From Bacteriovoracaceae bacterium (GTDB lineage: Bacteria > Bdellovibrionota > Bacteriovoracia > Bacteriovoracales > Bacteriovoracaceae), in assembly GCA_023954635.1 (NCBI GenBank), contig JAGSHI010000020.1, positions 1-38,819 on the forward strand: a stretch of DNA of 38,819 nucleotides. Reading direction: 5' to 3'. Below are positions 3,762 to 20,675 of this stretch, piece after piece; positions within the stretch are counted from its first letter, which is position 1, and every line of letters begins with the position of its first letter. The notes under the pieces were generated by a model. The model was not told where the DNA came from. It saw only the letters and a program-made list of their open reading frames with translations, and did no database searches. A program made the position numbers and the translations under genes.

Positions 3762-3778
3762 GAAGATAAAAAAGAAAA

Positions 3779-3866
3779 TGGCGGAGGACACAGGATTTGA
3801 ACCTGCGGACCCGTGAAGGTCAATGGTTTTCAAAACCACCGCTTTCGACCACTCAGCCAATCCTCC
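3779..3866 (-). tRNA. tRNA-Ser(TGA)
   Basis: An 88-base type II tRNA. Acceptor GGAGGAT pairs with GTCCTCC, followed by G and encoded CCA. The anticodon loop TTTGAAA gives TGA, and the long variable arm and GGTTCAAATCC T-arm are present. It is the first gene of the unit; its 5' end is only about 12 bases from the -10 box of the promoter at 3878-3906. With GGA and GCT, three serine isoacceptors lie within 3.2 kb. Confidence 0.97.
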
Positions 3867-3937: not shown

Positions 3938-6900
3938 TTATTTTAATTGTTTTATGAGCCCCTCGATCTGACCTCGGTCTGGAGCGTTCGGATATATTTG
4001 TAAATACGTTTCAAATGACTCTATAGCCAGTCCTGATTGCCCACTGGCGCGATAGACATAACCCAATTGCTTATGAATTTCAGGGTTTCCTTCTTCTTTT
4101 TTCTTGGCCCTCAGCAGCAATTCCCTCGATTCTTCATTAAAATTTTGCCGAAGTTTAATTGCAGCTAGCCCCAAAAGTGCCTCTACATATTTTCCGTTTA
4201 TAGAAATGGCCTTTTCATAGTTCTTGGTAGCATCCAACCATTTTTTTAATTTCAAGTTTGCTTCGGCCCTCACAAAGTAACCAAATTCCAATGTAGGGTT
4301 AAGTTTTACTTCTTCTTCTGCAAACTCTAGTGCTTTTTTTGCATCCCCCATGGCCATATAAGTTTTAGCCAAATAGTAATGTGTTTTCGGAAACGATTTG
4401 AGACGTTCAGTGATTGATAAAAATATTTCTATCGCAGATCGATATTGTTTTTCCCTAAATAGATATTCACCAAGAGTCATTCTTGTTTCAAGATCACCAG
4501 GGTTAACCTTAATTAACATTCGAGCGTATTTAATAACATCTTTATATCTTTCATCAAGCTTCGCAGCTTTGATAAGAAACTCATAAAAAGATTGGTCTTT
4601 CTTTACTAAGTTTTCAACTCGCTTTTTGTATTCTTCGAATTGTTTCATCTGACCACTTTTATAATAATAAATGGCCATCTCACCTAAGATTTGAGGATGA
4701 TCTTTATTCTCACTTAAAACATCTCTTAAATAACCAAGAGCTGCATCGATGTCTGAACGTTCGTATAAAATTCTTGCGTAGGTGAGCCTATAATCGACAT
4801 TTCGTGGATCTAGAGAAATAGATTCAGACAACATCTGCTTGGCACGATCATATTTTCTATTTTTTAAATAAACTTTTGCCAAAATAAAATAATCCCTATC
4901 ATTAAGGGGATATCGCTTAATAGACTCCTTAAGCCACTTTACAGTAAGAACAGGGTTATTTCTTTTATTATAGTATCGACCAAGAACAGAAGCATATTGA
5001 TAAGAAGCCCTAAATTTAGTTTGAGATACAACGTTAATTAATTTATTAGCATCAGCTAGTTTCATACTATCGATATAGGCCATGATTAATTTAAAGTTTA
5101 TACCTACATTGAGAGGGTTTTCAGTTCTTAGTTTTTCTAATGTACTTATCGCTGATTCGAAATAGCCTCGCATCACCTGAATCTCAGATAAAAGCAACTG
5201 AGCTGGAATATAAGCTGGCCCTAAATCTGCTGCCTCAATAGCCGTTTTGAATGCTTTCTCCCATTCCTTTCTTTGAGCAGAAAGTCTCGCTTTTTTCATA
5301 AGCTCGATAACTTTTGATTGGAGAATTAAGTTTTCAACAGAGGAATCTCCACCCAGGCTCAGTGCCGCAAGTTTTGATCGTAAAACATCGGACTCCTCAA
5401 TTTTGAGTGCAAGATTGAAAAGCTCAGCGGCTTTTACATTATTTTTATTAATCGCACTCATCATCCCCATATTTTCTAAAAATTTAGCATAATAGATTGG
5501 ACTTCCTTCACTACCAAGTTCTTCAACTCGCTGAAGAAGGATTTTATATTTTCGATAGTCGCCCTTTTCTAATTGATAATCTGAAAACTTTAGAAGCATA
5601 GGAACACTGTTAGGAAACTTCTTTAATCCTTCTTGGATTAAGGAATAACTCTCATCTTTTCTTTCATCGAGTTCTAAAAATCTCGCAAGAGACAGATAAA
5701 CCTCAATCGTTTTCTTCGGAAGATCTTTTAACTTATCATAAACTTTTCGAGATTTTACCAAGTCTCCAGATTCTCTCAAAACATCCATATATAGGGCCAT
5801 TAACTTTACGGTCGGCTTTCCAACTCGAATAAAGTTTTCGATTACATTTATAGATGTTTGGTATTTTTTGTATTCTGAATAAAACCTTGCTGCACCCATG
5901 GCAACATTTATATCTTTTAGTATTCTTGTTCTTCCGATCTTTAACAATTTAAAGAGGGTATTAGCGGCCTTTATTTTATCTTTAGCATTCCTAAAAATTT
6001 CAGCGTAAGTCAGGATTAACCAACCCAGGGCCTTATTTCCCCGAAACTGATAACTCAGACTATTTTTAAATAATATAGCTGCTTTTACAGTATTTAAATA
6101 TCCACCTTTAGAATAAGTTTCAACCCCCATCGCTAGGCTTTCTCTAGACTTTACCTCATCCATAACTTCGAATGTAACAGGAAATGATATTGTTATTCTT
6201 TGGGGAACAGGCTTAACTTTTTCTTCATCAGTATAGAGAAACCAAATAATTACGAGAAAAGCAAAGGCGACAATAGGCTTCATAGGCTTTTTCTTTTCTT
6301 CGCCGTCTCCTTTTTCTTTTTTCTTTTTCTTTTCTCTTTTGGGAATTGAGATTTTTTCTTTTTCTTCTATTATTTTTCTTTGAAATTCTTTTTCAGCAAT
6401 TAATGACTCATTTTTAACTGAAGGCAATAGTTCATTTAGGTTAGCCACTACGGTGGCCTCATTATAATCAACGTTCTCCTCAAGCTCCTCTTCTTCCTCC
6501 GGCTCTTCAACTTCTTCTGGCTCAGGCTCGGGTTCTGGTTCAGGATCCGGCAATCTCGTCACCACCGTTTTATCGAGATCATCTTCTCCACTTGTTACTG
6601 GCCTTCTAAGCACAACCGTTTTCTCAACGCCCTCATCTTCTTCCTCTTCCTCTTCTGGTTCTGGGGCAGGCTCCGTTTCTACTTCTTCTTGTTTCTTTTC
6701 ATAGTTTTTTTCTAATTCGTCATAGTTTACTTTGACGTCAGCATTGCCCTCTTTTGAGAATTTAAACTCTTCAAGTTTTTCTGATGGATTCTCTTCTTCT
6801 TCAGATTTTATAGACTTTAATTTTTTGGCAAGATTAACTCGAGCAAGGGTATCAACAGTTGTCTTATCCTGAAGATCTTCAGCTTGTTTCTTCTTAGAGA

Positions 6901-7087
6901 TGATTAACTTTATGGCATCTGTTATGACTTTAAAGTCTTTAACTTTATTCCAGTCACCACCTGGAAACATTTGGCAGTCCTCAGACCCAGTAATGTGTCC
7001 TTTTTCATACAGTTCACCAATTTGACCTGCATTGAACGGTCCAACGATTCGACCGGATGACAATTTAACTCTGTATTTCTTTTTCAT
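3938..7087 (-). CDS. GYF-domain / transmembrane / TPR-superhelix protein, last gene of the nuo operon
   Basis: The 1049-residue protein has four parts. Residues 1-60 resemble the GYF_2 (DUF4339) fold: YRVKLSSGR, then GPF at 16-18, a helix, and GGDW around 43-46. Residues 60-265 are a charged cytoplasmic linker rich in Glu and Pro, with the short motif [DE]xT[TV]V at 74, 155, 172 and 210. Residues 271-285 form one membrane helix after a lysine-rich stop, which predicts N-inside topology. Residues 340-1049 are some 14 or more TPR or TPR-like helix pairs, predicted periplasmic. The start overlaps the N' stop by four bases (ATGA), so it is coupled to the second complex I arm. Cytoplasmic GYF plus one helix plus a large periplasmic domain recalls the topology of Myxococcus gliding protein GltJ, but this is an analogy only. 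Function unknown. Confidence 0.75.
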   Translation of the reverse strand: MKKKYRVKLSSGRIVGPFNAGQIGELYEKGHITGSEDCQMFPGGDWNKVKDFKVITDAIKLIISKKKQAEDLQDKTTVDTLARVNLAKKLKSIKSEEEENPSEKLEEFKFSKEGNADVKVNYDELEKNYEKKQEEVETEPAPEPEEEEEEDEGVEKTVVLRRPVTSGEDDLDKTVVTRLPDPEPEPEPEPEEVEEPEEEEELEENVDYNEATVVANLNELLPSVKNESLIAEKEFQRKIIEEKEKISIPKREKKKKKEKGDGEEKKKPMKPIVAFAFLVIIWFLYTDEEKVKPVPQRITISFPVTFEVMDEVKSRESLAMGVETYSKGGYLNTVKAAILFKNSLSYQFRGNKALGWLILTYAEIFRNAKDKIKAANTLFKLLKIGRTRILKDINVAMGAARFYSEYKKYQTSINVIENFIRVGKPTVKLMALYMDVLRESGDLVKSRKVYDKLKDLPKKTIEVYLSLARFLELDERKDESYSLIQEGLKKFPNSVPMLLKFSDYQLEKGDYRKYKILLQRVEELGSEGSPIYYAKFLENMGMMSAINKNNVKAAELFNLALKIEESDVLRSKLAALSLGGDSSVENLILQSKVIELMKKARLSAQRKEWEKAFKTAIEAADLGPAYIPAQLLLSEIQVMRGYFESAISTLEKLRTENPLNVGINFKLIMAYIDSMKLADANKLINVVSQTKFRASYQYASVLGRYYNKRNNPVLTVKWLKESIKRYPLNDRDYFILAKVYLKNRKYDRAKQMLSESISLDPRNVDYRLTYARILYERSDIDAALGYLRDVLSENKDHPQILGEMAIYYYKSGQMKQFEEYKKRVENLVKKDQSFYEFLIKAAKLDERYKDVIKYARMLIKVNPGDLETRMTLGEYLFREKQYRSAIEIFLSITERLKSFPKTHYYLAKTYMAMGDAKKALEFAEEEVKLNPTLEFGYFVRAEANLKLKKWLDATKNYEKAISINGKYVEALLGLAAIKLRQNFNEESRELLLRAKKKEEGNPEIHKQLGYVYRASGQSGLAIESFETYLQIYPNAPDRGQIEGLIKQLK

Positions 7088-8430
7088 TTTAAACTATTTA
7101 ATAAAATAGTTGGTTTGACGCTTAAAACGACAAGAATAACCAACACTGTTGCACTGTACAATTGTAACCCAATTGTATCTTTCAACACAGTGTAATTATT
7201 AAGCCGACGCTCTGAAGAGTAACGATAAAATTTTAGGAAAAAAAGTCCTGCAATAACAACAGATCCTGCAGTAATAAACTCAAGTATATGTCCATTGGAA
7301 ACGAGAGACTTTAGAAGAAGAACCCTAATTTCAAATCCAGGAAACCCGGGAACTCCGACCATTGAACCCAAGCATATTAAGATGAGAACAAGGGGCAGTG
7401 GATTTTTAGGGATAAAAACATTTTCTGATGACTTCTCCAGATATTTTAAAGAATGGGGAATCAGAAGTGAAAAACTAATTCCTGTAATTAAAATATAAAG
7501 AACAGCAATTTCTTGGATCAATTCAGAATTTTCCAAAGTAAAAGTAAAAACTAAACATCCCATCAGAGCAGAATAAAGATAACTAACAGAGTCAAAGAAA
7601 TCTTTACCCCAAGCAGATATTAACGATGCATATACAATTGTTACAAAGCCAAGAATTCTTAAAACAAAGTAGAGGTACTCTTTATGTACGGGATCCATAT
7701 GACCAACGAGGGTCAGTAAAATTTTAACAGTAGCTAAATATATTCCTGATTTTACGATGAGTAAGCCAAGCGTGAACGTATCTACTTTTCCAGACCGAAC
7801 TATATCTGTGTCGTTACTATGAAATGGAAACACTCCTAGTTTTGATAGAAAATATATAAAAAACATAAGAACTGAAATGGAATACATTTCAGGTGCAACA
7901 ACTGATATTTCGGTGAGAGTAATATTGCCTGTAGAAATTCTTAGAAAGACCAGGAACAACAAAAAGAACCCTGCATAGAATTCGTTTTTTATAAACAATC
8001 GAAGAGAATTTAAACTTATATTCCGTCCTTCCTCTAACGCCATAAATCCAATCATAGAATAAAAAGTCATTTGCGATGATATAAAGAACAGAATAAGTGA
8101 GTTAAAACCAAGGCAACAAAGAATAGAAAAAATAGTAAAGCAAGAGACAATAGACTTTATAAGACCTTTACGAGTGTCTTCAATTAAAAAGAACCCGAGG
8201 ACCTGAATAACAACCAAAGCGATGGCCAATCGATACGAAAACCCAGACAGGTTATATATTTCTCCAAGCTTAATCTCGCCAAAGTTTACAATTTTGAACA
8301 GCAAAATTAATTGAAGTCCTCCAAAGAGTAGTTTAGAGATTCCATAATGAGAATATTTTGACACTCCAAACAATGTTATAGTGAAAAAAATTAAAAAGTA
8401 TATTCCAAGGAAATTTAATACTTCAATCAT
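7084..8430 (-). CDS. N': diverged NuoN-like antiporter subunit of a second complex I arm
   Basis: The 448-residue multi-helix membrane protein aligns with the intact NuoN of this operon (489 residues). The broken-helix segment K197-LGVFPFH204 matches NuoN K224-IACVPFH231, and K227 lies exactly 30 residues on, as K254 does in NuoN. Both channel lysines are thus kept. The essential glutamate of TM5 (E139 in NuoN, in YIGIETLSI) is Q120 here, and the TM12 lysine (GFVAK) is replaced by arginine (GFEIR). It overlaps M' by four bases upstream and the GYF-TPR gene by four bases downstream. An MrpD-like antiporter is possible from this gene alone, but the A'-H'-J' neighbours favour a complex I origin. 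Confidence 0.8.
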   Translation of the reverse strand: MIEVLNFLGIYFLIFFTITLFGVSKYSHYGISKLLFGGLQLILLFKIVNFGEIKLGEIYNLSGFSYRLAIALVVIQVLGFFLIEDTRKGLIKSIVSCFTIFSILCCLGFNSLILFFISSQMTFYSMIGFMALEEGRNISLNSLRLFIKNEFYAGFFLLFLVFLRISTGNITLTEISVVAPEMYSISVLMFFIYFLSKLGVFPFHSNDTDIVRSGKVDTFTLGLLIVKSGIYLATVKILLTLVGHMDPVHKEYLYFVLRILGFVTIVYASLISAWGKDFFDSVSYLYSALMGCLVFTFTLENSELIQEIAVLYILITGISFSLLIPHSLKYLEKSSENVFIPKNPLPLVLILICLGSMVGVPGFPGFEIRVLLLKSLVSNGHILEFITAGSVVIAGLFFLKFYRYSSERRLNNYTVLKDTIGLQLYSATVLVILVVLSVKPTILLNSLK

Positions 8431-9614
8431 ACTATCTTCTCCTCGGAAAATTCAGACTTTTTGAATAATCCCCTCGGAAGAGAGGACAAAATAGCCAAGA
8501 GTGATAGTATTCCCAGGATACCGAGGGGAGGTTGCTTTTCTAACACAATTTTTAATACAGATAAGATACGCTCTTGCATTGGCAAAAATGGAAAAGGGCC
8601 CACTAAGATGAAAATCAAAAGCCAATATACCGAAGTTAAGACTGCATTATCTTTAATCTTATATAAGTATGATTCAAATACTTCTCTTACAAAAAAGAAT
8701 AATAATAGTTGAAAATAAATATAGTAATTTGCCGTTTCAATTAGCTGACAGTTTAAGATACAGATAAAGAGAAGTACGAATTTAAGCTGAGAAAGCCTAT
8801 TGATTTGAGATTCTCTTTCATTATTTAAAATCAGATATATCGATATTGGAAAAGTTATACTTATAAAAATAAAAAAGTCTTCCATGTATGTATGATTCCA
8901 ACCAACGCTGGTTAAGAAATATTGCATAACAGAGAATACTCCTATCACTGAAATCAAGTTACTGCTCAATCTACTTTCAACAGGAATATCATCTTTTTTA
9001 GACTTGTGAAAAAGTTCTTCAAGGAATCCGAGACGTACAATGAGATATATAAAAATCAATACGTTTCTAATAAACACTGTTTTTAAATCAAAATCTTGGA
9101 GGAAAAAAACAATTGTTAACATCGTAATTGCTGAGCAAACGCCATTTTTCAAAAGGTAATATTGTCGAACTTCAGAATATTTTGCATCGAGATATCCCAA
9201 CACAACGATCAAGGAAACAAGATCTAAAACTATCATTCTCAAGATTAGTGAATTTACAAGAAACAAACCATAGAGCAATATTGGAAAAACAGACAAGCAC
9301 AGTATTTTCTTTTTAACTTCTACAATATTTTGTTTAGACAACACCCAAACCATAAGAGGGTAGATCAGGGATATCATTAATACTTCATCTATGCGAAGAC
9401 CTATCCCCACAGGAATTTCTATTATATTTCCTATTAAATATTCTTTATCTATCGGATTATTTACAATATTTTGATTTGAAAAGTAGAGACAAAGAGGTGA
9501 TGCAATAGCCGTTACGAGCAGGACCCAGCCTTCTTTCATTCGATTCATAATAAATGGCAACGCGATGGCCATTATTATAAAAAACAAAAATGTATACATA
9601 ACGTCTAACATCAT
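8427..9614 (-). CDS. M': shortened, diverged NuoM-like subunit
   Basis: A 395-residue membrane protein, against 515 for the intact NuoM. Position in the operon and weak local similarity identify it. GLRIDEVLM (72-80) fits NuoM GVDGISLPM, and SLILRMIVLD131 fits the TM5 segment ending in W143-E144, so the key glutamate appears to be aspartate. The TM7 lysine seems to be R194 (IVRLGF), but this part needs a two-residue gap and is tentative. The C-terminal third is shorter than in NuoM. It has four-base overlaps with both L' and N'. Without the neighbours one would call it only a hypothetical membrane protein. Confidence 0.65.
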   Translation of the reverse strand: MMLDVMYTFLFFIIMAIALPFIMNRMKEGWVLLVTAIASPLCLYFSNQNIVNNPIDKEYLIGNIIEIPVGIGLRIDEVLMISLIYPLMVWVLSKQNIVEVKKKILCLSVFPILLYGLFLVNSLILRMIVLDLVSLIVVLGYLDAKYSEVRQYYLLKNGVCSAITMLTIVFFLQDFDLKTVFIRNVLIFIYLIVRLGFLEELFHKSKKDDIPVESRLSSNLISVIGVFSVMQYFLTSVGWNHTYMEDFFIFISITFPISIYLILNNERESQINRLSQLKFVLLFICILNCQLIETANYYIYFQLLLFFFVREVFESYLYKIKDNAVLTSVYWLLIFILVGPFPFLPMQERILSVLKIVLEKQPPLGILGILSLLAILSSLPRGLFKKSEFSEEKIV

Positions 9615-11224
9615 AAAATCAACTTAATATAAAAAATTAGAATTATAGCGGTCAAAACCATCGCATATAATAAATTAGAATTTATCCCCTTGGGTCGAAT
9701 ACGGCTTAACCACCAACCAATATTTCCCAACACATCAACAAGAAATAATACCGGATAAACAAATGCCCCCCTCAATACTAACTCAAGTCCATTTCGAGTT
9801 GGGACGCTTAATCGATACATATTAATAGTGAAACTTTTATCCTCTACGTTAATTCTCTTAACAATAGTCCCCTTAAGTACAAACCTAACCCTTTCGATTG
9901 ATGAGTTGTTTAATAGACCCTTCCTTCTTAGAGTGACAAATACTGCTCCAAGTACAACGGGTAATAAAATTGAACAAAAGAATAATATATTTTTTAAACG
10001 CCAATTGACCCCAGGGTCCCCAGAGATCTCTAACCCAATTTTTTTCATTAAGATAAATGAATTACTTTCTGCAAAAACATCAGGAATTGTTAAATAGTAC
10101 GAAGTTCCAATAACCAAAAGGATTAGTAATGATTCACAGATATCTAAAGGTAACGGGCGATCACTATGTTCAGGTTCCATAAATTTATCATAAAGTTGAT
10201 CAATCGATATCCAAAATAGATATAAAGCAACAACCACGAAAGGAAGAAGGTAAAGCAAGCTAGCGTCCCTGGCCACAAACTCTGTTATCAAGAAATATAA
10301 GCTCCATCCGCCAGGGAAAAATGGCGCAAGACACAAACCACAAAGGAGTATGAGAGATGTAATTTTTTTTATCTTAATAAAATTTCCATTCTCAATAAAC
10401 TCTAAGCTCATTATTGCCCAAGATGCTAAATAAATGACCCATATAACGGATACTACTCCCGTAGATAAGATCAGCCCCAGAGCAGTTACATAGCATGAGA
10501 GAAGTAGGCCCTTGTGTTTATTTATCTTTTCTCCGCTAAACTCTAGACCAGCAAAAAGAAGCCCAAGGGCCATAAAAGCTAAACCAAAGTATTCTTTTAA
10601 ATCACCGTATTCTGAAGACAATACGTAAGGAACAATAAAGCCAAGCTCTGCTAAAACAAATATTAATTCAACAAACGAGCTATCTTTTTTATTTTCAAAA
10701 TTAAATTTATAAAAAAGAATTTTTATAAAGATTGTTATCATCACCATGATGAAGGCATATTCCGCAGGTAAAACGTATAAAGTAATGAGCAAGGCTGAGA
10801 ATAATAAAAACATGAATTTTACAGCAACTTCGTTTCTAAGCGACTCTCTTGGTAAAAAGATTGTCGATAAAGAAGAAACAAGTAAGTAGGAAAGTATATT
10901 TCCAGAACAAAAAGATAAAGAAAGTATCAATATCGGTATTGTAAATTTTGAGTCATTTAAAAAGACATTCGGGATAAACAATAAAAATATTGCAAAAAAT
11001 ATTATTGAGGTCCCGGTGACACTAAAACTAAGTCCCGTGTCAAAGAGGTTTATTTCTTCTGATCCGACCACACCAAAGGTAACAAACCCAAGAATAGTAA
11101 TCGTTACCAAATGAGTAAATAGTCTAACATACTGAGGGTTTGACTGAACCCAATCCTTAGCCTTCTTATTGAAAAGACTTAGGGCAAATAGTAAATATAT
11201 TATAACAATTGATATAACTATCAT
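9611..11224 (-). CDS. L': diverged NuoL-like subunit
   Basis: The 537-residue membrane protein corresponds to NuoL (723 residues in this operon). SGNILSYLLVSSL (107-119) aligns without gaps to NuoL SDNLLSVFIFWEL (143-155). This places S118 where NuoL has the functional E154, so the TM5 glutamate is lost. An intramembrane lysine (K168) may correspond to NuoL K244, though a gap of about 40 residues lies between. A C-terminal amphipathic stretch and a final membrane helix are kept, recalling the NuoL lateral helix and its anchor. It overlaps K' and M' by four bases each. Family assignment rests on position, hydrophobicity and these short matches. Confidence 0.65.
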   Translation of the reverse strand: MIVISIVIIYLLFALSLFNKKAKDWVQSNPQYVRLFTHLVTITILGFVTFGVVGSEEINLFDTGLSFSVTGTSIIFFAIFLLFIPNVFLNDSKFTIPILILSLSFCSGNILSYLLVSSLSTIFLPRESLRNEVAVKFMFLLFSALLITLYVLPAEYAFIMVMITIFIKILFYKFNFENKKDSSFVELIFVLAELGFIVPYVLSSEYGDLKEYFGLAFMALGLLFAGLEFSGEKINKHKGLLLSCYVTALGLILSTGVVSVIWVIYLASWAIMSLEFIENGNFIKIKKITSLILLCGLCLAPFFPGGWSLYFLITEFVARDASLLYLLPFVVVALYLFWISIDQLYDKFMEPEHSDRPLPLDICESLLILLVIGTSYYLTIPDVFAESNSFILMKKIGLEISGDPGVNWRLKNILFFCSILLPVVLGAVFVTLRRKGLLNNSSIERVRFVLKGTIVKRINVEDKSFTINMYRLSVPTRNGLELVLRGAFVYPVLFLVDVLGNIGWWLSRIRPKGINSNLLYAMVLTAIILIFYIKLIL

Positions 11225-11520
11225 TGCACCCTGATCTTCATATCTTCAGTCATTAATGTCTTTTTGGACTTATAAAACTTTACTGAAAACATTATTCCCA
11301 TTGCTAACTGGATAACGCTATAGAGAATGAGAATCAGAGGAAGATGAAATTGCTCAGTAGTTTTCATCTCTCCTTGGAGTACTAAAAACATCAAAGCTGT
11401 GGTTATTGTCATAATTGTTAGGCAAAGGATTGATGTTAGAATATTTCTCTTAAGGATCACTCCGGCCATTCCCATAAAAAAGAGAATAAGAAGAGGGTAT
11501 AATTCTTTATTTATCATCAT
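11221..11520 (-). CDS. K': diverged NuoK-like subunit lacking both key glutamates
   Basis: A 99-residue, three-helix protein that aligns along its whole length with the intact NuoK (101 residues): LKRNILTSIL matches ARKNIIAILL, and IQLAMGIM matches AEAAVGLA. In NuoK two membrane glutamates (E36 and E73 here) are needed for proton transfer. The equivalent positions in K' are T35 and Q71, so both charges are gone. MrpC/MnhC is the only other family of this size and fold. Two adjacent ATG codons (11520 and 11517) could start it. It overlaps J' by 14 bases and L' by four. Confidence 0.75.
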   Translation of the reverse strand: MMINKELYPLLILFFMGMAGVILKRNILTSILCLTIMTITTALMFLVLQGEMKTTEQFHLPLILILYSVIQLAMGIMFSVKFYKSKKTLMTEDMKIRVQ

Positions 11521-11971
11521 CGAATAACCCCACGAGTAGAACGATACCCAATAACATCATCATGGTAATCACCAAGATGACAGCATATTCTTGCTGAATA
11601 TCTGTTTTTAAATGTGCTTTTTCGATTAGACCTTTTTTTTCTGTTAAATGAATAACTAAACTAATTCCGCCAAGAGTGAATGCAGTGAAAATCATTCCCA
11701 CGACAGGAGTTATGTTTTTCTTATATGCTTTTTGAAACTCTTTTTCTAAGTCTACATTCATAAATAGCTGCAAACAGATCATTAAAGTTGAAACGAGTAA
11801 TAAAAACAGGACAATCGTCGAGTCCATAATATTGTTTTTCAATATGAATGTTATAAAGACGAGAAAAGAAAAACCAAAAAATGTAAATCCAGAGATTAGT
11901 GGTAGCCTCGAAAATATCGATGTCGCCCCAACAATCAAGATACCCAATAAAAGATAGAACATTATACCCAT
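11507..11971 (-). CDS. J': diverged NuoJ-like subunit
   Basis: 154 residues from the ATG at 11971, chosen because AAAGGAGAT precedes it at good distance; a longer frame reaching 12046 would run deep into H'. The protein has about five membrane helices and a charged loop near residues 74-88. The NuoJ TM3 segment with the conserved Y62-V-G-G65 pi-bulge motif aligns with L57-L-L-V60, so the flexible glycines used in complex I coupling are absent. It lies between H' and K', exactly as nuoJ lies between nuoH and nuoK, and overlaps H' by ten bases. Confidence 0.65.
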   Translation of the reverse strand: MGIMFYLLLGILIVGATSIFSRLPLISGFTFFGFSFLVFITFILKNNIMDSTIVLFLLLVSTLMICLQLFMNVDLEKEFQKAYKKNITPVVGMIFTAFTLGGISLVIHLTEKKGLIEKAHLKTDIQQEYAVILVITMMMLLGIVLLVGLFDDDK

Positions 11972-13011
11972 CCTATCTCCTTTAATAATTTGAAAACATA
12001 AGTTCCAAGTGCATTTAGCAAAAGCACAGGCGTCCAAAACTTCCACGCCTTATTAAGCAGCTGGTCTGTTCTGAGTTTTGGAATAAGCCATTTTACACTT
12101 GAGCTTAATGCAAGAATTATCATTGATTTTGTCATCAATGATCCAATTTGAACGAAGTAGAGAGAATTCGGAAAGTTTTCTATTAGAAACTCACTTCCTG
12201 GTATTACGTCATAGCCCCCCAAAAAAAGATGGCAAAAAAGTATGGAGTGACAAAAAAGGTTTATACGCTCTGAAATACTCGTCATATAAAGAGTTACAGA
12301 GTTCATATAAAAACCAAGATTGAACCTTGTTCCAGAAAGCTCAAAATTAAATATATTTTTAAGATACAAGGCCTTGACTGTAATATAGTAAAAATAGGCG
12401 AGGGCCACTATAGGCTGCAAATATATGCCATTAAGGTCAAGCTTTCCAAAGAGGACCTTATTTTGAATATTGTTTATCTGATGAAAATCTGCTGATTGAT
12501 AGGTAACTGTCATTATTAAAGTAATAATTAAGAACAAAAGTTCTATTGAAAAAAACTGCATGATTTTTTTTAAGTTACCCAAAATCGCTAAGTTATTATT
12601 TACACTCCAACCAATTAATATATGTGTAACTACGCTAACTTCAACCAGTGCAAGAAACATGAATACAGAGTTCGTATCTGAGAAAATTTCTGATTTTAAA
12701 ATCGCTCTGTTATAAACAAGGGGTTCACAGAACGTTAGAACCGCTAATGGCAATAATGATACTCCAAAGTGAAGCATCGGCATGAACAAACTTTTTGAGA
12801 GACTGCCCGTTTTATAATAGGCTAATTCTTTAAAAAATGAGTGAAAGAATCCCATTGGTCGAATCTTAATGCTATTTATTGATTTACCTATGCTCTTAGA
12901 TGAATACAAGTTGAGAAGAGACTTTTCTACAACGACTGCAATCAATATCGATAGCCCACATACAACAGCAAGAAAAATCATTTTTAATGGTAGGATATAC
13001 AGGTCAGTCAT
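11962..13011 (-). CDS. H': diverged NuoH-like subunit
   Basis: A 349-residue membrane protein, against 398 for the intact NuoH. Clear landmarks remain: VEKS (28-31) for AERK, a GWSVNNNLAI-to-SIE block for GGYSSNSKWS-to-SYE, LGGYDV for LGGYQV, and the C-terminal LRTDQLLNKAWKFWTP for LRVDQLMTLCWKYLTP. The cytoplasmic loops that hold the quinone channel and bind the peripheral arm are not conserved: RQGPNRVGPFG and the ETNRAPFDLPEAE acidic funnel are both lost. It is thus unlikely to form a quinone site with NuoB/NuoD. The start overlaps the A' stop by eight bases. Confidence 0.8.
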   Translation of the reverse strand: MTDLYILPLKMIFLAVVCGLSILIAVVVEKSLLNLYSSKSIGKSINSIKIRPMGFFHSFFKELAYYKTGSLSKSLFMPMLHFGVSLLPLAVLTFCEPLVYNRAILKSEIFSDTNSVFMFLALVEVSVVTHILIGWSVNNNLAILGNLKKIMQFFSIELLFLIITLIMTVTYQSADFHQINNIQNKVLFGKLDLNGIYLQPIVALAYFYYITVKALYLKNIFNFELSGTRFNLGFYMNSVTLYMTSISERINLFCHSILFCHLFLGGYDVIPGSEFLIENFPNSLYFVQIGSLMTKSMIILALSSSVKWLIPKLRTDQLLNKAWKFWTPVLLLNALGTYVFKLLKEIGWV

Positions 13012-13354
13012 CTAGACGAATTCCCCCAGATGCCCTTGCGATCAAATAACCAACAATAGTGACAATTAATATCCAACAGCTCATAAGTAGATAAGGCCAA
13101 TTTTCTTTTCCGAACCCAAAATGTACTCTAAGCATTATCAAGAGTGAGATACAAACTGATAAAAAACTAAACAGTATTGAGAGAGTAAAGTAATTATTCT
13201 TATGGCGATTTGTTTTTCGAATAAAGCTTTTAACGCCGCTTTCTAGAGATTCTACTTCTTTTTTAGAGTAAGACTTGGACTTTAAGACGAGGGCCACAGC
13301 AATTGGAATACCAACTGCTGAGAAAATAAAGATAAAGAAGTGTTGAAGATCCAT
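13004..13354 (-). CDS. A': diverged NuoA-like subunit
   Basis: A 116-residue, three-helix protein aligning with the intact NuoA (148 residues) through the central part without gaps. The loop motif Y46-E-C-G49 is L37-E-S-G40 here, removing the conserved cysteine that reports the active/deactive state in mitochondrial ND3. The membrane motif F74-D-V-E77 becomes L65-S-V-C68, so both acidic residues of the E-channel are lost. It is the first gene of the second set, 13 bases after nuoN, which shows that the two sets are transcribed together. Confidence 0.75.
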   Translation of the reverse strand: MDLQHFFIFIFSAVGIPIAVALVLKSKSYSKKEVESLESGVKSFIRKTNRHKNNYFTLSILFSFLSVCISLLIMLRVHFGFGKENWPYLLMSCWILIVTIVGYLIARASGGIRLDD

Positions 13355-13367: not shown

Positions 13368-14837
13368 CTATTTCCCAAGGAAAATTGAAGCCCCTTCCGT
13401 CAAATGCATAATTCCACTCCAGAAAATTCCAATCATTACAACAGGAACAGTCATGGTCATAATTATACTTTGATTTAAGGCTCCAAAACCAACAATGGGC
13501 TCCATAGATTCTACTTCTCTGAAAACCATCAGTCTGATAATTTTCATATAGTAGTAAAGTGATACAACAGAGTTAAGTACTGCAATCAGTGCAAGAATGT
13601 AATACTTCTCTGAGAGTAGAGCACTTAGAATATTAAACTTCGCAACGAATCCACTTAGAGGTGGCATACCAGCAAGCGAGAACATTACGATACTCATCAT
13701 TATAGTCATCATTGGGTATCTTTTAATCAATCCGCTAAACCTTTCGAAGTGATCATTCCCATATTTATCGGCTACAAATGAAGTTATAAAGAAGGCCACA
13801 AGTGTCATGAATAGATAAGTAATTGAATAGAAAAGAATTGATCTAGTCCCAATTTCACTTACTACAACAACACCCATCATCATCATCCCAGCATGGGATA
13901 TCGAACTAAAGGCCAGCATTCTTTTAACTGATCTTTGTCCAATGGCCGAAACATTTCCGACAGTCATTGTTAGTGCGGCGACAACAGAGAGTATGCCAAC
14001 CCAGCTCACCTGGAGCGCACCTTCTTGACCGAAGAAAACCATAGTAACTCTTAAAAGAACTGCCATACCTGCGACTTTAGGAACAATACTAAAGAAGGCC
14101 GTAACAGGAAGAGGTGAACCTTCATAAACATCAGGGGCCCACATATGAAAAGGAACACAAGCAATTTTGTATCCAATTCCCGCGAAAAACATAATAAAAG
14201 ATGGAATTAAAACGGCAGTTTCAAATGTGCTTAACTCGTAAAGGCCAGCCATTATTTCTGGGAATTGAATTGAGCCAAGCATTCCAAAGATATGACTCAT
14301 TCCAAACAACATCACACCAGATGAGATCCCTCCATAAAGAGAGTATTTAAGACCAGCTTCACTAGATCTTTCTTCATTCTTTTTAAAGGAAGCCAATGCA
14401 TAAGATAAAATCGATAAGGTTTCGATTCCAATATAAACCATAAGAAGATTGTTTGCCGAAGCGAGTATCATTCCGCCAATCATCACCCCGATAGTCATTA
14501 TTGCAAATTCAGATTTTAACGAGCCGTATATATCCTTAGATTCTTTACTTAGGTAAATCGCTGCCATTGTCCCAAGAACCATAATTATTTTAACGAGTGT
14601 CGAGAACGGATCTATCACCATTGAATTCGTAAAGATTGCAGATGGCGCTTCAGTTAAGCTAACGCAAAGGTTTATGAAAACAAAAAGAAGACCAATAAAG
14701 GTTGCGGCATAAAAGAAACCTTTCTTTCTTTCGCTATTATCATAACAAGATTCAATAAGAACTAAACCGACCATAATCACAACTGAGAGTAACTCTGGTA
14801 CATACCTAGAAATGCTAGCTAAATAATTGATCGCCAT
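13368..14837 (-). CDS. nuoN: NADH-quinone oxidoreductase subunit N
   Basis: NuoN is one of the three antiporter-like proton-pumping subunits of complex I. The 489-residue protein has the expected 14-helix pattern and the functional residues E139 (YIGIET), K224 (GYKIACVPFHMW), K254 (IVPKVAG) and the TM12 lysine in SGFVAK. WAPDVYEGSP is diagnostic for the family. It follows nuoM by 10 bases and precedes A' by 13 bases. Nothing suggests loss of function. Confidence 0.95.
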   Translation of the reverse strand: MAINYLASISRYVPELLSVVIMVGLVLIESCYDNSERKKGFFYAATFIGLLFVFINLCVSLTEAPSAIFTNSMVIDPFSTLVKIIMVLGTMAAIYLSKESKDIYGSLKSEFAIMTIGVMIGGMILASANNLLMVYIGIETLSILSYALASFKKNEERSSEAGLKYSLYGGISSGVMLFGMSHIFGMLGSIQFPEIMAGLYELSTFETAVLIPSFIMFFAGIGYKIACVPFHMWAPDVYEGSPLPVTAFFSIVPKVAGMAVLLRVTMVFFGQEGALQVSWVGILSVVAALTMTVGNVSAIGQRSVKRMLAFSSISHAGMMMMGVVVVSEIGTRSILFYSITYLFMTLVAFFITSFVADKYGNDHFERFSGLIKRYPMMTIMMSIVMFSLAGMPPLSGFVAKFNILSALLSEKYYILALIAVLNSVVSLYYYMKIIRLMVFREVESMEPIVGFGALNQSIIMTMTVPVVMIGIFWSGIMHLTEGASIFLGK

Positions 14838-14847
14838 AAACTAAACC

Positions 14848-16395
14848 TTAATTAAATTTCGCCAATAGTGAAACTAAGTTACCTACTGATACTTTCATTA
14901 CATCTAATATTGGAGTTGGATAAATACCAAATACTACAACTGCAACAATGAGTGGACTCATGTAAAAAATTTCACGAGCATTCATGTCTGTATACGATTT
15001 ACATTCTTCAATAACTTCTCCAAAGAACATTCTCTTAAACATCCACAGAAGATAAGCTGCACCAATCAATAGTCCAAACAATGCAAGAACAGTGATAGTT
15101 GTATACTTCTCATAGATTCCTAGGAAGATAAGTGCTTCAGAGATAAATCCAGAGAGTCCAGGAAGTCCCATAGAAGCAAACATCGCTATGATAAAGACGA
15201 TGCTGTATTTTGGAAGTTGAGTATAAAGACCACCAAAACCTTTTGTTCCATCAGGTCTAACAATCCATCTATGGTGAGATCTTTCATATAAGATACCTAC
15301 CAAGAGGAACATCATCGCTGTTGAAGTTCCGTGATTAAACATTTGTAAAACGGCACCGTTCATACCCTGAACTGTCATGGCCGCAAGACCTAGCATTACA
15401 AACCCCATGTGAGATACCGAAGAGTAAGCAATAAGTTTTTTGACGTCTGTCTGGGCCATGGCACAAAGAGCACCATAAACAACATTGATAAGTCCAAGCC
15501 AAGCAATGCAATCAGCAAAGTGTACTGATGCTTGTGGAAAGATAGGGAAGGCAATTCTTAAGAATCCGTAAGTTCCCATCTTTAGTAGAACACCGGCCAG
15601 TATCACTGAAATAGCAGTAGGGGCCTGAACGTGCGCATGTGGTAACCAAGTGTGAAATGGAAATACAGGTACTTTAATCGCAAAGCCTATAAACATCATC
15701 ACAAAGAAAAACTTAGAGAATGAAATATCCATTCCGAAAAGTCTAAGAGATAGATCGGTAAACTTTCCACCTGACATGGCCAAAATATCAAACGTGTTCG
15801 TTCCAATATCTGGGTTGTCTGCAGAAACAAAGTATAGTGCAACCATACCCACTAGCATCAATACAGAACCAAAGAAGGTATAAAGGAAGAACTTAACCGC
15901 TGCGTATTCTCTGTTTTCTCCACCCCAAATTCCAATAAGAAAGAACATTGGAATAAGCATAACTTCCCAGTAAACATAGAAAAGGAAGAAGTCGAGAGAC
16001 ATGAACACACCAAAAACACTACTTTGCAAAAAGAGAAATAATGCGAAGTAACCTTTCACACTCTTCGATATTGTCCAGCTACACAGGATACATAAAGAAA
16101 AGAGTAGGGAAGTTAAGACAATCATCGGTAATGAGATTCCATCAACACCTAGGGAGTAGTTAATATTGAACTGACTAATCCATGGATGGAAAACATTAAA
16201 GTACTGCTGCATTCCAGGTACTGTTGGATCAAACTTCATATATAAAACAATCGTTAAAGCAAAAGTAATGATTGTATTAAACAATGCTGTGTATCTGATC
16301 CAGTTTTCTTTGGTCTTTGGGATAAGTAGAATTGCCAAAACTCCTAGCATTGGCATCCACAAAATCAGGTTCAACAAATTAGAATGACCGTTCAC
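14848..16395 (-). CDS. nuoM: NADH-quinone oxidoreductase subunit M
   Basis: Antiporter-like proton-pumping subunit of the complex I membrane arm, 515 residues. E144 (VYWEVMLIPMF) is kept at the same number as in E. coli, as are the TM7 lysine in FAIKVPVFPFHTWLPHAH, the TM8 lysine in LLKMGTYG and the TM12 glutamate in SGFISEAL. Length and helix pattern are normal. It lies between nuoL (31 bases upstream) and nuoN (10 bases downstream). Confidence 0.96.
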   Translation of the reverse strand: MNGHSNLLNLILWMPMLGVLAILLIPKTKENWIRYTALFNTIITFALTIVLYMKFDPTVPGMQQYFNVFHPWISQFNINYSLGVDGISLPMIVLTSLLFSLCILCSWTISKSVKGYFALFLFLQSSVFGVFMSLDFFLFYVYWEVMLIPMFFLIGIWGGENREYAAVKFFLYTFFGSVLMLVGMVALYFVSADNPDIGTNTFDILAMSGGKFTDLSLRLFGMDISFSKFFFVMMFIGFAIKVPVFPFHTWLPHAHVQAPTAISVILAGVLLKMGTYGFLRIAFPIFPQASVHFADCIAWLGLINVVYGALCAMAQTDVKKLIAYSSVSHMGFVMLGLAAMTVQGMNGAVLQMFNHGTSTAMMFLLVGILYERSHHRWIVRPDGTKGFGGLYTQLPKYSIVFIIAMFASMGLPGLSGFISEALIFLGIYEKYTTITVLALFGLLIGAAYLLWMFKRMFFGEVIEECKSYTDMNAREIFYMSPLIVAVVVFGIYPTPILDVMKVSVGNLVSLLAKFN

Positions 16396-16426
16396 CGGTA
16401 AACTCCTTATTAAAATATTTAACTTT

Positions 16427-18598
16427 TTATACTAATTTCCAAATATATCCGACCATAACAACGAGAAAGATAATAAAGTAAAACTGTATCTTTCCATTTT
16501 GAAAGGTTCTTAATATCACATTAAAAAATCTTACTGATGCACCTGTTCCGTCAACACCGACGCTATCAACAATTACATCATCAACCCATTTTGCAATTCG
16601 ATAGAAGAATCTGTTAACCGCTTCCCAACCGTCAACGGCATAGCGATCAAAAACTCCCATATCAAATCTCGATAAAAGATTATTAAAAGGTAGCAATCCC
16701 TTTTGAAGGATTCCTTTTACATACAAATCATCAAAGTAATATTTGTTTTGAAGGGCCCTGTACCAACCACTGAAAGCATTTACCCAACGACCAGGATTCC
16801 ACGCTCCTCGTGAGTACATCATGAAAGCAATAAACCAACCAGCAAGAGCAATTGCTATTGAGGCCCATGCACCAATCGCGTGGACGAGGTGAACATGGTG
16901 AGCTTCTTTTTCTGTAAAGTATTTATCTGGATTGAACTGAGACTCTTCAAAGACTCTGTCTGCTCCAGTATCAACACTTCCAAAAGGCAATGATTTATAG
17001 GCCTTGAAGTTTTCTACTCTAGGCTTTTCAATTAAAGTAGCAAACCATTCCTTATGTTCAACACCTGGAATTTTTACCCAACCACCAAAGAAGTGACCTG
17101 AGTACCAACCACCAAGAGTAAAAACAGTTAAGATTAAAAGAGGTAAGTTTCTATTCCAACTTAGCTTTTCAACATGAGTATGATCGTAAAGATCTTTATC
17201 TCTTGGCTCACCAAAGAAAGTTAAGAACATCATTCTAAACATATAAAAGGCTGTTAAAAGAGCCGCTGTAAATCCTAAGAACGCTGGGATCCAGTAGGCC
17301 TTACTTTGAGTGGCCATTACAAGTGCATCACCCAGAATTCTGTCTTTAGAAACGAAACCACTAAAGAGCGGGAATCCTGCAATGGCAAATGTACAACAGA
17401 GCATCGCTATAAAGGTAAGAGGCATTTTCTTTCTAAGTCCACCCATACGTGGCATTTCTTGAACGTGGCCATGGGTATGGTGATCGTGAAGTGAGTGAAT
17501 GACTGAACCCGCAGCCAAAAATAAACATGCTTTAAAAACAGCATGAGTAATTAAGTGCATGAAGGCGGCATTATAAGCCCCAACTCCAATCCCTAGAACC
17601 ATATAACCAAGTTGAGAAATCGTTGAGTAAGCAAGAACAGCTTTTATATCTGTTTGGACGAGTGCAATCGTTGCGGCCCCAAAAGCAGTTATTGCTCCAA
17701 TATAGGCAATAAAGGTTGTGATACCTCCAAGCTCCATTAAAGGATACATTCTTAAAGAGAGATAAACTCCGGCAGCAACCATAGTTGCAGCATGGATAAG
17801 CGCCGAACAAGGAGTTGGTCCCCACATCGCATCCGGTAGCCAAACCTGAAGTGGAAACTGAGCTGACTTTCCAATTGTTCCCATAAAAACGGAAAGGGCC
17901 GCGAAAGTTGCGAGTGGCAATCCTACGGCATAAAGTCCGTTGAAAGATCCATCTGCAATGGCCGCATAAATATCAACAAATCGAACACTTCCAACAGTTG
18001 TCCAAATGGCCAAGATTCCAACAAGGAAAAAGACGTCCCCAATTCTTGTTGTCATGAAGGCTTTCATAGATGCATTTCCAGCACCCTCTTTTTCGTAGTA
18101 GAAACCAATCAAAGAATATGAACAAAATCCCATAAGTTCCCAGAAGATGAAAACTGATAAGAGGTTGTCAGAAAGAACAAGTCCCAACATTCCAGTAGTA
18201 AATAAAGAGAGATAAACAAAAAATCTTCCGTATCTCGCATCACCGGCCATGTAATAAGTTGAAAAGATGTGAATAAGGAATGCACATCCAGCAACCATGA
18301 AAAGCATAACAGCTGACATGTTATCTAAATAGATACCCATATCTACAGCGAAGTTTGAAACTCCTGCTGCTTTCAGGTCAAACCATGGAAAAACTTTATG
18401 TACGTAATATCCAGTAGAATACTTTCCGAATACAAAGTCTTTGAAGATTCTAAATGAATAGAAAAGTGAGACAAACATACCAAAACAACTTAGAAAAACT
18501 CCAAGTTTAGTCCACTTCTTTACTATAAAGATATTGACCACAAAGGCCAAAAATGGACCGAGTAAGATTGGTAGAATACTTCCTAGTGTATATTCCAT
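16427..18598 (-). CDS. nuoL: NADH-quinone oxidoreductase subunit L
   Basis: The distal antiporter-like subunit with the long lateral helix. E154 in FIFWELMGFCSYSLIGF, K244 in GKSAQFPLQVWLPDAM, and HAATMVAAGVYL are all present. At 723 residues it is longer than the E. coli protein (about 613), mainly through a soluble-looking segment around residues 490-560 and an extended C-terminus ending in a membrane helix. The AHHVHLVHAIGA region precedes the lateral helix. It follows nuoK by nine bases. Confidence 0.96.
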   Translation of the reverse strand: MEYTLGSILPILLGPFLAFVVNIFIVKKWTKLGVFLSCFGMFVSLFYSFRIFKDFVFGKYSTGYYVHKVFPWFDLKAAGVSNFAVDMGIYLDNMSAVMLFMVAGCAFLIHIFSTYYMAGDARYGRFFVYLSLFTTGMLGLVLSDNLLSVFIFWELMGFCSYSLIGFYYEKEGAGNASMKAFMTTRIGDVFFLVGILAIWTTVGSVRFVDIYAAIADGSFNGLYAVGLPLATFAALSVFMGTIGKSAQFPLQVWLPDAMWGPTPCSALIHAATMVAAGVYLSLRMYPLMELGGITTFIAYIGAITAFGAATIALVQTDIKAVLAYSTISQLGYMVLGIGVGAYNAAFMHLITHAVFKACLFLAAGSVIHSLHDHHTHGHVQEMPRMGGLRKKMPLTFIAMLCCTFAIAGFPLFSGFVSKDRILGDALVMATQSKAYWIPAFLGFTAALLTAFYMFRMMFLTFFGEPRDKDLYDHTHVEKLSWNRNLPLLILTVFTLGGWYSGHFFGGWVKIPGVEHKEWFATLIEKPRVENFKAYKSLPFGSVDTGADRVFEESQFNPDKYFTEKEAHHVHLVHAIGAWASIAIALAGWFIAFMMYSRGAWNPGRWVNAFSGWYRALQNKYYFDDLYVKGILQKGLLPFNNLLSRFDMGVFDRYAVDGWEAVNRFFYRIAKWVDDVIVDSVGVDGTGASVRFFNVILRTFQNGKIQFYFIIFLVVMVGYIWKLV

Positions 18599-18607
18599 TC
18601 CAGTTTC

Positions 18608-18913
18608 CTATTGTAACAACTGGGTAGCATCATCAATATGAATGCTTTCCCTGATCTGAAAAAATCTAATAACAATTGCTAAACCAACAGCTGCTTCTGC
18701 AGCGGCTATAATAATGATAAAAAGGGACATGATATGCCCGTCCAGGTTGTTGTTCACAAACCTGGTATAAGCGACAAAATTTATTGCACAAGAATTAAGG
18801 ATTAGCTCAACCCCAAGAAGTATCGCAATAATATTTTTTCTTGCGATCATTACTGCGATTCCACAAACAAACAATAAGAATGAGATCGCCAAATAGCTCG
18901 ATAATGTAATCAT
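18608..18913 (-). CDS. nuoK: NADH-quinone oxidoreductase subunit K
   Basis: A three-helix membrane-arm subunit of 101 residues. The two essential buried glutamates are visible: E36 (LLGVELILNS) and E73 (AAAEAAVGLAIV). The RKN loop and the length match the family. The start overlaps the nuoJ stop by four bases. It provides the intact reference for K' at 11221-11520. Confidence 0.96.
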   Translation of the reverse strand: MITLSSYLAISFLLFVCGIAVMIARKNIIAILLGVELILNSCAINFVAYTRFVNNNLDGHIMSLFIIIIAAAEAAVGLAIVIRFFQIRESIHIDDATQLLQ

Positions 18914-19449
18914 GATTCTATTTTCCTTGGTCTAGCGATCAATGCCGCTCCAATCAAAGCTCCAAGCAACAAGACAGATGAAATTTCAAAAGCAAGTACA
19001 TGGTCAGTAATTAACAATTCACCAATTTTTTCAACTGTTGAAGAAAAAGGTGGAAGCTCACCCTTTGGCACAGCCTTAGTAACGTTTACAATTATTTTTG
19101 AGATTACGAGGGCCATTAATAGGGCCGATAGTCCAGCAAGAGTAAATGTTTTAATATTACCCATAGGTGCAATCTTCTCAATACCGAACTTATTCACCGA
19201 TTTATTATCGTTTCCGCCAGTTAACATAATGGCAAAAAGCATAAGAATAACAACGCCACCAACATAAACAACCAATTGAGTTGCTGCTAAAAAGTCAGCA
19301 CTTAATGTTACATACAAACCAGAAACTCCTATTAATGAAGTCAGTAGATATGTACATGCATGCATGAGGTTTGGTGATAAAACTACTGCAAGTGCACCAC
19401 AAACTGTTAGGGCCGCAGAAGATATAAATAAAAAATTATCAAACATCAC
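18910..19449 (-). CDS. nuoJ: NADH-quinone oxidoreductase subunit J
   Basis: A 179-residue membrane-arm subunit with five helices. The TM3 motif Y62-V-G-G65 in LVVYVGGVVILMLFAIML is intact; it forms the pi-bulge that changes during turnover in structures of complex I. It follows nuoH by 14 bases, and nuoI, which commonly lies between nuoH and nuoJ, is missing. Confidence 0.94.
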   Translation of the reverse strand: MMFDNFLFISSAALTVCGALAVVLSPNLMHACTYLLTSLIGVSGLYVTLSADFLAATQLVVYVGGVVILMLFAIMLTGGNDNKSVNKFGIEKIAPMGNIKTFTLAGLSALLMALVISKIIVNVTKAVPKGELPPFSSTVEKIGELLITDHVLAFEISSVLLLGALIGAALIARPRKIES

Positions 19450-19463
19450 TAATCTCCAGTAAA

Positions 19464-20660
19464 TTAATGGCCACCGGCCGCTGCTGCACCACTTTTAAAG
19501 ATAAGATTCCACATGGATTCTCCGTCAAAGTAGTAAACCCAAAAGGCAACACCAACAAGATTGATTAGTGCAATTGGGGTTAAGTATTTCCAACAAAGTG
19601 TCATTAGTTGATCAACTCTAAGTCTAGGTAACGTCCATCTGATCCAAATAACGACGTAATAAAGTGCACATGTTTTTGAAACAAAACCACCGACTTCTAA
19701 AAGTTGTCCAAGGATTCGAGCGGGCCCAAGAGGAAGACCAATTTTATTATGAAGAAGAAATGTATCACTTAGCTCAAATGGCACTTGGTAACCACCAAGA
19801 TAGAGAGCGACAGCAACACCACAAAGCACGAAGACTTCAACGTATTCCGCCAAAGCAAAAAACGCAAATCTCATTCCGGTAAATTCTGTATGGTAACCTG
19901 AAACGAGTTCTGATTCAGCTTCAGGTAAATCAAATGGAGCTCTGTTTGTTTCGGCCAGGGCCCCGATAAAAAAGACAATAAAACTAATTACTGTAAAAGG
20001 ATTATGAAAAATAAACCATTGGTGTGGAAGTCCACCCTGAGCACCAACAATATCTTTAAAGTTTAGTCCTCCACCAAGAAGAACCATTGCAATAATTGAT
20101 AATGTAACAGGCACTTCATAACTGATTATTTGAGAAGCTCCTCTCATTCCACCAATCATTGACCACTTAGAGTTTGATGAATATCCACCAAGAAAGATTC
20201 CGACTCCAACAACAGAGGAAACACCAAGAAGATAGAAAACACCAATATTTAAATGAGTAAGAGTAAACCCGGAGCTAAATGGAAGCACGGCAAGAGTTGC
20301 AAAAACACCGGCCATACAAAGAATTGGAGCGATAAAAAAGATCATCTTGTCAGAGTCTTTTGGAACGATATCTTCCTTCATAATCATTTTCACGCCGTCG
20401 GCTAGAAACTGAAGAATTCCAAATGGTCCTACTCTGTTAGGTCCTTGTCTCATTTGCATATCTGCAGAAATTTTTCTTTCTGCATATGTTCCTAAACCAC
20501 CGACAAGGGCCATCACGTTTACAATAACAAAGCATGCAACAAAAAAGGTTACAACTGTTAATAAGCCAGTTGCATTAAAACCTAAATATCTAGTTAGAAG
20601 CTCTGTTACGACTTGGTAAGGATGTGAACCTGAAAAAAATGTAACTACTGTCTCATTCAT
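19464..20660 (-). CDS. nuoH: NADH-quinone oxidoreductase subunit H
   Basis: NuoH forms much of the quinone channel and docks the peripheral arm. The 398-residue protein has AERK (60-63), RQGPNRVGPFG (71-81), GGYSSNSKWSMIGG (158-171), the acidic ETNRAPFDLPEAESE block (237-251) and the C-terminal LRVDQLMTLCWK. It is somewhat longer than the E. coli protein at both ends; the last residues are an Ala/Gly tail ending in His. It follows nuoA by 15 bases. Confidence 0.97.
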   Translation of the reverse strand: MNETVVTFFSGSHPYQVVTELLTRYLGFNATGLLTVVTFFVACFVIVNVMALVGGLGTYAERKISADMQMRQGPNRVGPFGILQFLADGVKMIMKEDIVPKDSDKMIFFIAPILCMAGVFATLAVLPFSSGFTLTHLNIGVFYLLGVSSVVGVGIFLGGYSSNSKWSMIGGMRGASQIISYEVPVTLSIIAMVLLGGGLNFKDIVGAQGGLPHQWFIFHNPFTVISFIVFFIGALAETNRAPFDLPEAESELVSGYHTEFTGMRFAFFALAEYVEVFVLCGVAVALYLGGYQVPFELSDTFLLHNKIGLPLGPARILGQLLEVGGFVSKTCALYYVVIWIRWTLPRLRVDQLMTLCWKYLTPIALINLVGVAFWVYYFDGESMWNLIFKSGAAAAGGH

Positions 20661-20675
20661 TATTTACACCTAACT

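Follow-up and report, generated by a model that had tools for sequence, protein, structure and literature searches.

We analysed a stretch of 38,819 nucleotides from a Bacteriovoracaceae bacterium (GenBank assembly GCA_023954635.1, contig JAGSHI010000020.1; the whole stretch is termed the window and its own genome G000, with G, C and L numbers denoting genomes, contigs and loci) and focused on a reverse-strand gene at 3938..7087 encoding a 1049-residue protein with a GYF domain, one transmembrane (TM) helix and a TPR superhelix. This GYF-TM-TPR gene and its product, for which we use the shorthand GT, can with high confidence be regarded, from sequence comparison, as the Bacteriovoracaceae orthologue of Bdellovibrio Bd0075. 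We lean towards a model in which GT acts as an envelope-spanning scaffold of a Tad/Kil-type (type IVb) prey attachment and killing apparatus, the complex I (nuo) genes upstream not being its working partner. This would move GT from respiration to prey attack. Its GYF domain has its nearest solved relative in a motility protein of Myxococcus, and the protein, hitherto known from a single Bdellovibrio screen, is now seen throughout a predatory family and in most of the sampled phylum. We also uncovered a complete complex I without catalytic and pumping residues, the reading frames of which are kept open.

GT and Bd0075 are connected by reciprocal best hits. GT finds a protein of the Bdellovibrio-type genome G111 at an E-value of 5.8e-25, and the back search into G000 returns GT at 1.5e-24 with the next place at 1.5e-5; the back search from the Bdellovibrio-type protein also returns GT in G004 and G020. 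The G111 orthologue (L104) comprises 965 residues counted from the second Met; of the 19 Bd0075 residues specified in PMC12034629 it has 17, and it is therefore Bd0075 or a near copy. Identity of GT to the Bdellovibrio protein is about 22% over the C-terminal 300 residues. Both proteins are alike in the succession of GYF domain, one helix and TPR and in their similar size (965 and 1049 aa), and they are unlike in that the window's GT has nuo genes upstream, shows no special conservation of the residues at the interface with Bd0474 described below and does not adjoin serS. The transposon mutant BD0075::tn fails to kill E. coli, which could be complemented, and was placed in class 1, i.e. attachment minus and killing minus, the transposon mutants being able to grow without prey (PMC6561027).

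We searched GT in 116 related genomes, 70 of them from its own family, and found matches below an E-value of 1e-60 in 62 of the 70 as well as long open reading frames (ORFs) elsewhere in the phylum; the tally of 113 of 116 genomes includes generic TPR matches, and we do not take it as the number of genomes with GT. Of the eight family genomes lacking a GT match, seven lack any serS and one has only its last 29 residues; because serS, a frequent neighbour of GT, is missing there too, the absence of GT is an assembly gap. One genome, G029, holds a second GT locus (L075), and the G087 locus L121, with a weak score and no serS, may not be a true orthologue. A scan of a named collection yielded 23 true GT matches (L165-L187) among 48 loci, the other 25 matching in the TPR part only; the 23 records are named Bacteriovoracaceae, Bacteriovorax, Halobacteriovorax, Bdellovibrionales or broader classes. 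GT is strongly constrained (pN/pS 0.17).

The initial annotation had proposed a cytoplasmic GYF-like domain at the N-terminus, for which absence of a GYF fold was named as the refuting outcome; structure and profile searches both found the fold. Residues 1-68 folded alone with AlphaFold2 reach a pLDDT of 91 and show strands at 4-8, 14-18, 37-41 and 46-48 and helices at 20-28 and 53-67, and we assign the cytoplasmic GYF-fold domain to residues 1-63 (6899..7087, reverse strand). In Foldseek against the PDB, rows 1-15 are GYF entries, the U5-52K chain of 4bws (4bws_C) and three TIC-complex chains, with probabilities of 0.94-1.00 and E-values from 1.5e-3 to 0.07, while row 16 drops to a probability of 0.08. 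VIA-align gives Z-scores of 4.6-7.3 in the first 11 rows, i.e. 4.6-6.0 for entries titled GYF or 4bws and 7.3 for one TIC chain, the next, unrelated row scoring 3.9. A sequence-profile search of the PDB with 23 close N-termini places the GltJ GYF domain 7z3c on top (E 6.6e-5; next 0.3); a wider profile of 30 N-termini finds 7z3c at 0.01 followed by human GIGYF2 at 0.03, and a single Bdellovibrio-type N-terminus as query returns only GIGYF1 and Smy2 (E 0.4-0.7). Pfam GYF_2 matches the GT N-terminus at E 0.03 with 14.4 bits, not reaching the curated cut-off of 25.8, and the whole-genome GYF_2 search of G000 did not list GT; among 30 orthologue N-termini, 23 show a GYF_2 match at E<=1, the best being 1.2e-5. 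The motif GP[YF]xxxx[MV]xxWxxx[GN]YF forms the proline-peptide pocket of GYF domains (PMC12034629). GT keeps GPF at 16-18 and has I, L, H and I in place of [MV], W, Y and F; the usual pocket aromatics are lost. Taken together, the modelled structure and its matches indicate the GT N-terminus being a GYF fold below the Pfam cut-off. Other GYF_2 proteins in G000 are located at C61:5851-6294, C86:77654-78142 and C3:13681-13830, two of them with tandem GYF domains.

The remaining architecture, proposed beforehand as a long linker, one membrane helix and some 700 TPR-like residues, is borne out by AlphaFold2 and Pfam, the TPR part amounting to ~740 residues. The AlphaFold2 model of GT, built with 23 sequences, has an overall pLDDT of 79.6. 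Residues 64-267 (6287..6898, reverse strand) form an acidic, Pro/Lys-rich and mostly disordered linker with pLDDT <50 at 74-119, 138-217 and 244-270, followed by the single membrane helix at about residues 268-289 (6221..6286, reverse strand), which is modelled at 271-285, has its hydropathy peak from residue 268 and a Lys-rich N-terminal flank (flank charge +6 / 0). The TPR superhelix spans residues 311-1049 (3941..6157, reverse strand); the helical array is unbroken from 311 to 1048 with a pLDDT near 90, and Pfam TPR models match down to E 1.9e-30. Whole-model Foldseek matches are the TPR arrays of CTR9, OGT, IFT-A and SKI3, and these point to the fold of GT, not to its function. A one-chain bacterial GYF-TPR scaffold is not among the entries of the Foldseek and VIA lists for GT. 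The predicted topology places the GYF domain inside and the TPR superhelix in the periplasm.

The tie to the Tad apparatus comes from Bdellovibrio. Bd0075 contacts Bd0474 in BACTH two-hybrid assays, mainly via the TPR C-domain (PMC12034629), and Bd0474 is an FHA-TM-TPR protein with double FHA and one helix, which shares its operon with the upstream Bd0470, i.e. TadC (PMC6561027). Bd0474-type proteins and the Kil/Tad FHA proteins (PMC8460266) resemble GT in combining a cytoplasmic signalling domain, one helix and a periplasmic TPR part, and differ in that FHA, recognising phosphothreonine, replaces GYF and that they are encoded in the tadC operon. The corresponding operon in G000 (C41) encodes T2SSF, DUF192, FHA (524 aa), FHA-TPR (352), double FHA with TPR (782) and PP2C (245), and that of G111 T2SSF, DUF192, FHA (565), FHA-TPR (376), double FHA with TPR (674) and a 228-residue protein without Pfam match. 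FHA searches in seven genomes found the same FHA trio in every family genome examined and in G111. The Bd0474-like protein has matches in all 116 genomes (E<=0.001), a tally including bare FHA matches; within the family its conservation is strong, and its TPR region (residues 473-780) shares 26% identity with that of G111 (E 1.8e-17). At G000:C40 a CpaF-type ATPase is encoded together with two T2SSF genes, and C49 encodes another ATPase with T2SSF. On the same strand just upstream of the FHA operon of G000 (L161:4698-11663) lie MreB (14681-15715), a weak PilZ match and a GH3 gene.

In the proposed mechanism the GYF domain of GT would dock a cytoplasmic partner, the long flexible linker allowing it to search the cytoplasm near the membrane, and the periplasmic TPR superhelix would hold envelope parts. 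GT may thus recruit a signal or a motor component from the cytoplasm to a Tad/Kil-type periplasmic assembly, beside the FHA-TM-TPR protein. Function and partner of Bd0075 are extended to this family by inference, giving moderate confidence in a role of GT in prey attack within Bacteriovoracaceae and fair confidence in its tie to the Tad apparatus. Several observations weigh against this model. The 14 residues that form the interface in the published AlphaFold-Multimer model show conservation not exceeding that of randomly chosen TPR-domain positions (p 0.50 over 30 orthologues, 0.30 within 20 of the family), and this particular Bd0474 interface is therefore probably not preserved. Attachment is lost in BD0075::tn but retained in Bd0474::tn (PMC6561027), so both do not form one simple unit. 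GT lies outside the FHA operon in every locus read, the two-hybrid evidence is by itself weak, and the net flank charge of the membrane helix agrees with the expected topology in only 57 of 84 orthologues. Lastly, the link to nuo is old and common to several families, leaving room for a functional tie.

In the window GT closes an operon of 15 same-strand genes at 3938-21122, as had been proposed, the order being A H J K L M N of the ordinary nuo membrane arm (13368..21122, reverse strand), then A' H' J' K' L' M' N' of a second arm, then GT. Its start ATG sits within an ATGA (7084..7087, reverse strand) overlapping the N' stop, and the 24 nt examined upstream of the start contain no Shine-Dalgarno-like stretch. 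The upstream nuo genes would provide for GT transcription, and in the window coupling to them probably also provides for its translation. Comparison of 63 family loci (62 fetched and the window; 3 cut, 60 readable) revealed 33 with both arms before GT, 14 with the second arm only, 12 with the ordinary arm only and 1 with none, classes being set by hand with L073 and L080 counted as 'both arms' though the upstream arm itself is decayed, and L049, L071 and L091 as 'second arm only' though the contig may end before the ordinary arm. The second arm thus directly precedes GT in 47 of the 60, and the refuting outcome named in the initial annotation, GT lying apart from A'-N' in most relatives, does not hold within the family. 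The ATGA overlap itself is not general, the spacing from the upstream gene to GT ranging from -59 to +105 nt. Among 24 loci of other families, GT lies behind nuoN in 8 and behind nuoN with one reverse-strand gene between in 3, while 9, among them Bdellovibrio, have no nuo in the upstream stretch fetched and 4 are cut; in L104 rho-prfA-prmC-murA precede the GT orthologue and no nuo gene lies beside it. Directly downstream, serS follows GT in 50 of 87 loci.

Gene order, size and, for A', H' and K', Pfam matches relate the second arm to the membrane arm of complex I (NuoAHJKLMN), from which it differs in that L', M' and J' have no nuo-like Pfam match at E<=0.01 and in the loss of channel residues. 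On the reverse strand, A' (116 aa; 13004..13354) matches Oxidored_q4 (1.2e-6), H' (349 aa; 11962..13011) NADHdh (1.8e-26) and K' (99 aa; 11221..11520) Oxidored_q2 (1.1e-10), K' having lost both conserved Glu. J' comprises about 154 residues if starting at the Met of MGIMFY (11507..11971), its long ORF reaching 12046 and its counterpart in L036 having 153 residues; it has no Pfam match. L' (537 aa; 9611..11224) and M' (395 aa; 8427..9614) show loss of channel residues in the alignment and no Pfam match. The NuoN relative N' (448 aa; 7084..8430) gives weak NCBIfam matches to NuoM/NuoN (3.7e-8 / 1.5e-5), far below cut-off; its channel Glu is replaced by Gln, while the TM7 and TM8 Lys are kept. 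The description of the arm as charge-stripped therefore suits L' and M' but not N', which retains two channel lysines. The second arms of G016 and G033 retain the Glu and Lys channel residues of these three subunits (L, M and N), that of G022 retains part of them, and in L085 L', M' and N' shrink to 217, 245 and 310 residues. The second arm is found at every stage of decay across one family (window 7084-13354; loci L036-L097) with open frames kept, which makes the question what a dead complex I is good for a testable one. Neither the literature searched, which mostly excluded subscription papers, nor a term search within PMC11656739 yielded an account of a second, or a decayed, complex I from these bacteria.

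In a NuoL tree of 19 rows without outgroup, the least decayed second arms (L049, L065; G016, G033) group with the GT-adjoining nuo of other families (100/100), and the ordinary arm of the family stands apart (100/100); adding four NuoM outgroup rows gives the same split, supported by 98 on the side of the ordinary arm and by 93 on the other, long branches being flagged by the program. The second arm being a tandem copy of the family's ordinary arm is not supported, as the tree places second arms with other families. From this tree and the loci across families, the sequences indicate that the line nuo - GT - serS is old and the second arm is the old nuo, the ordinary arm being of another lineage and placed upstream of it, and that GT adjoins the second arm mainly through old gene order. 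Comparing the window with L036 gives dN/dS values of 0.03-0.11 in the ordinary arm and of 0.16 in A', 0.25 in J' and 0.17 in N'; dS is saturated for H', K', L', M' and GT, for which we claim no dN/dS. L' and M' (29% and 28% identity, window versus L036) are weakly constrained. A plain pseudogene is not supported, all seven frames being open in the window and in L036 despite synonymous differences of 0.69-0.77 per site, and frames open under such divergence imply selection on the second arm. Demands of membrane insertion and of translation coupled to GT might suffice to explain this constraint; they would not explain NuoB' and NuoCD', an unlinked second Q-module. These are encoded at the end of G000 contig C10 (L122:6844-8751; further loci L127, L124 and L130) following a lipoprotein-like protein of 549 residues, G001 and G004 adding NuoI' (seen in L127 and L124), and G016 and G033 have genes sized like B, CD, E, F, G and I in one run, judged from sizes, order and PF00346. 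In seven genomes compared, the N2 cysteines of NuoB' are lost in G000, G001 and G036 and kept in G004, G022, G016 and G033. The lipoprotein-like protein of 483-551 residues always precedes NuoB'/NuoB (L122:5198-6847; L127, L124, L130, L217, L218), and its conservation (565 bits between G000 and G001) greatly exceeds that of the decayed nuo genes; the three tested gave no confident Pfam match.

The second arm had been proposed as part of a machine acting on GT; that it drives GT is not supported: Bd0075 lies away from nuo, and GT persists without the second arm in 12 family loci, where it stands beside the ordinary nuoN, and in G020. GT being a complex I subunit is rejected as the main reading, G020 carrying GT without arm and without detectable NuoD and Bdellovibrio-type genomes carrying it away from nuo; PF00346 was found neither in G020 (87% complete) nor in G037, which also carries GT, both genomes being 87-88% complete. 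According to a milder version, the decayed arm would be a non-pumping platform or sensor signalling to the envelope through GT. The 47 family loci with direct adjacency, the age of the pairing as seen from the grouping of L049 and L065, the seven ORFs open near or at synonymous saturation with the dN/dS values of A', J' and N', and the separate locus retaining NuoB', NuoCD' and, in relatives, NuoI' argue for it. We nevertheless consider it rather unlikely, since the nine nuo-free loci of other families, the 12 family loci and G020 lack such a partner, the known phenotype of Bd0075 is predation and not respiration (PMC6561027), and the constraint on the arm can also stem from membrane insertion and coupled translation; our confidence in a functional tie of GT to A'-N' is low. 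Improbable in our view is a pseudo-complex I: a whole second complex I, descended from the lineage tied to GT across the phylum, would have lost its proton channels and, in G000, the N2 cluster cysteines, while selection keeps it as a non-catalytic membrane body that has come to serve prey attack as an envelope platform, GT connecting it to the periplasm.

GT could also be a functional counterpart of GltJ/AgmX from the Myxococcus gliding machinery, a likeness put forward in the initial annotation which holds at the domain level, 7z3c being the nearest solved relative by sequence profile and the order of cytoplasmic GYF, one helix and periplasmic part being common to both, but not beyond it. 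GltJ has an N-terminal zinc ribbon; a CxxC pair is absent from the N-terminal 70 residues of 30 aligned orthologues of GT, leaving no counterpart of this ribbon. The C-terminus of GltJ is TonB (PMC8262864), whereas GT has TPR, and TonB is not among the 22 Pfam families, nearly all TPR, matching its last 220 residues at E<=1. The locus maps contain no glt genes beside GT, the upstream genes being nuo, mfd or housekeeping genes, and membership of GT as a GltJ thus fails. For a gliding role speak the absence of GltH, I, J and K from Bdellovibrio and the TPR giant GltI beside GltJ, as reported in PMC3169522, and the attachment defect shared by Bd0075 and AglS mutants (PMC6561027); the published contact is, however, a tadC-operon protein (PMC12034629, PMC6561027), and we regard such a role as unlikely. 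A general envelope scaffold for cell wall or outer-membrane upkeep, loss of which would be visible only under predation, fits the phylum-wide occurrence of GT beside housekeeping genes (serS; rho-prfA-prmC-murA in L104) and the generic nature of TPR arrays. It seems quite unlikely in view of transposon mutants growing without prey and failing at attachment and killing (PMC6561027).

Around the operon, mfd, with TRCF domains, is the divergent upstream gene. Downstream of GT lie tRNA-Ser(tga) at 3779-3866, tRNA-Ser(gct) and tRNA-Arg, and these two tRNA-Ser and one tRNA-Arg genes (3581-3866) occupy the place that serS takes after GT in many relatives. In the window serS is not next to GT; this adjacency was lost in the branch to which the window belongs, and as a trait of gene order it does not define the Bd0075 family. 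In addition to the arm adjoining GT, a nuo run with matches to NuoA, H, J and K together with PF00346 is present in L129 (G026:C17), in a genome without second arm at GT.

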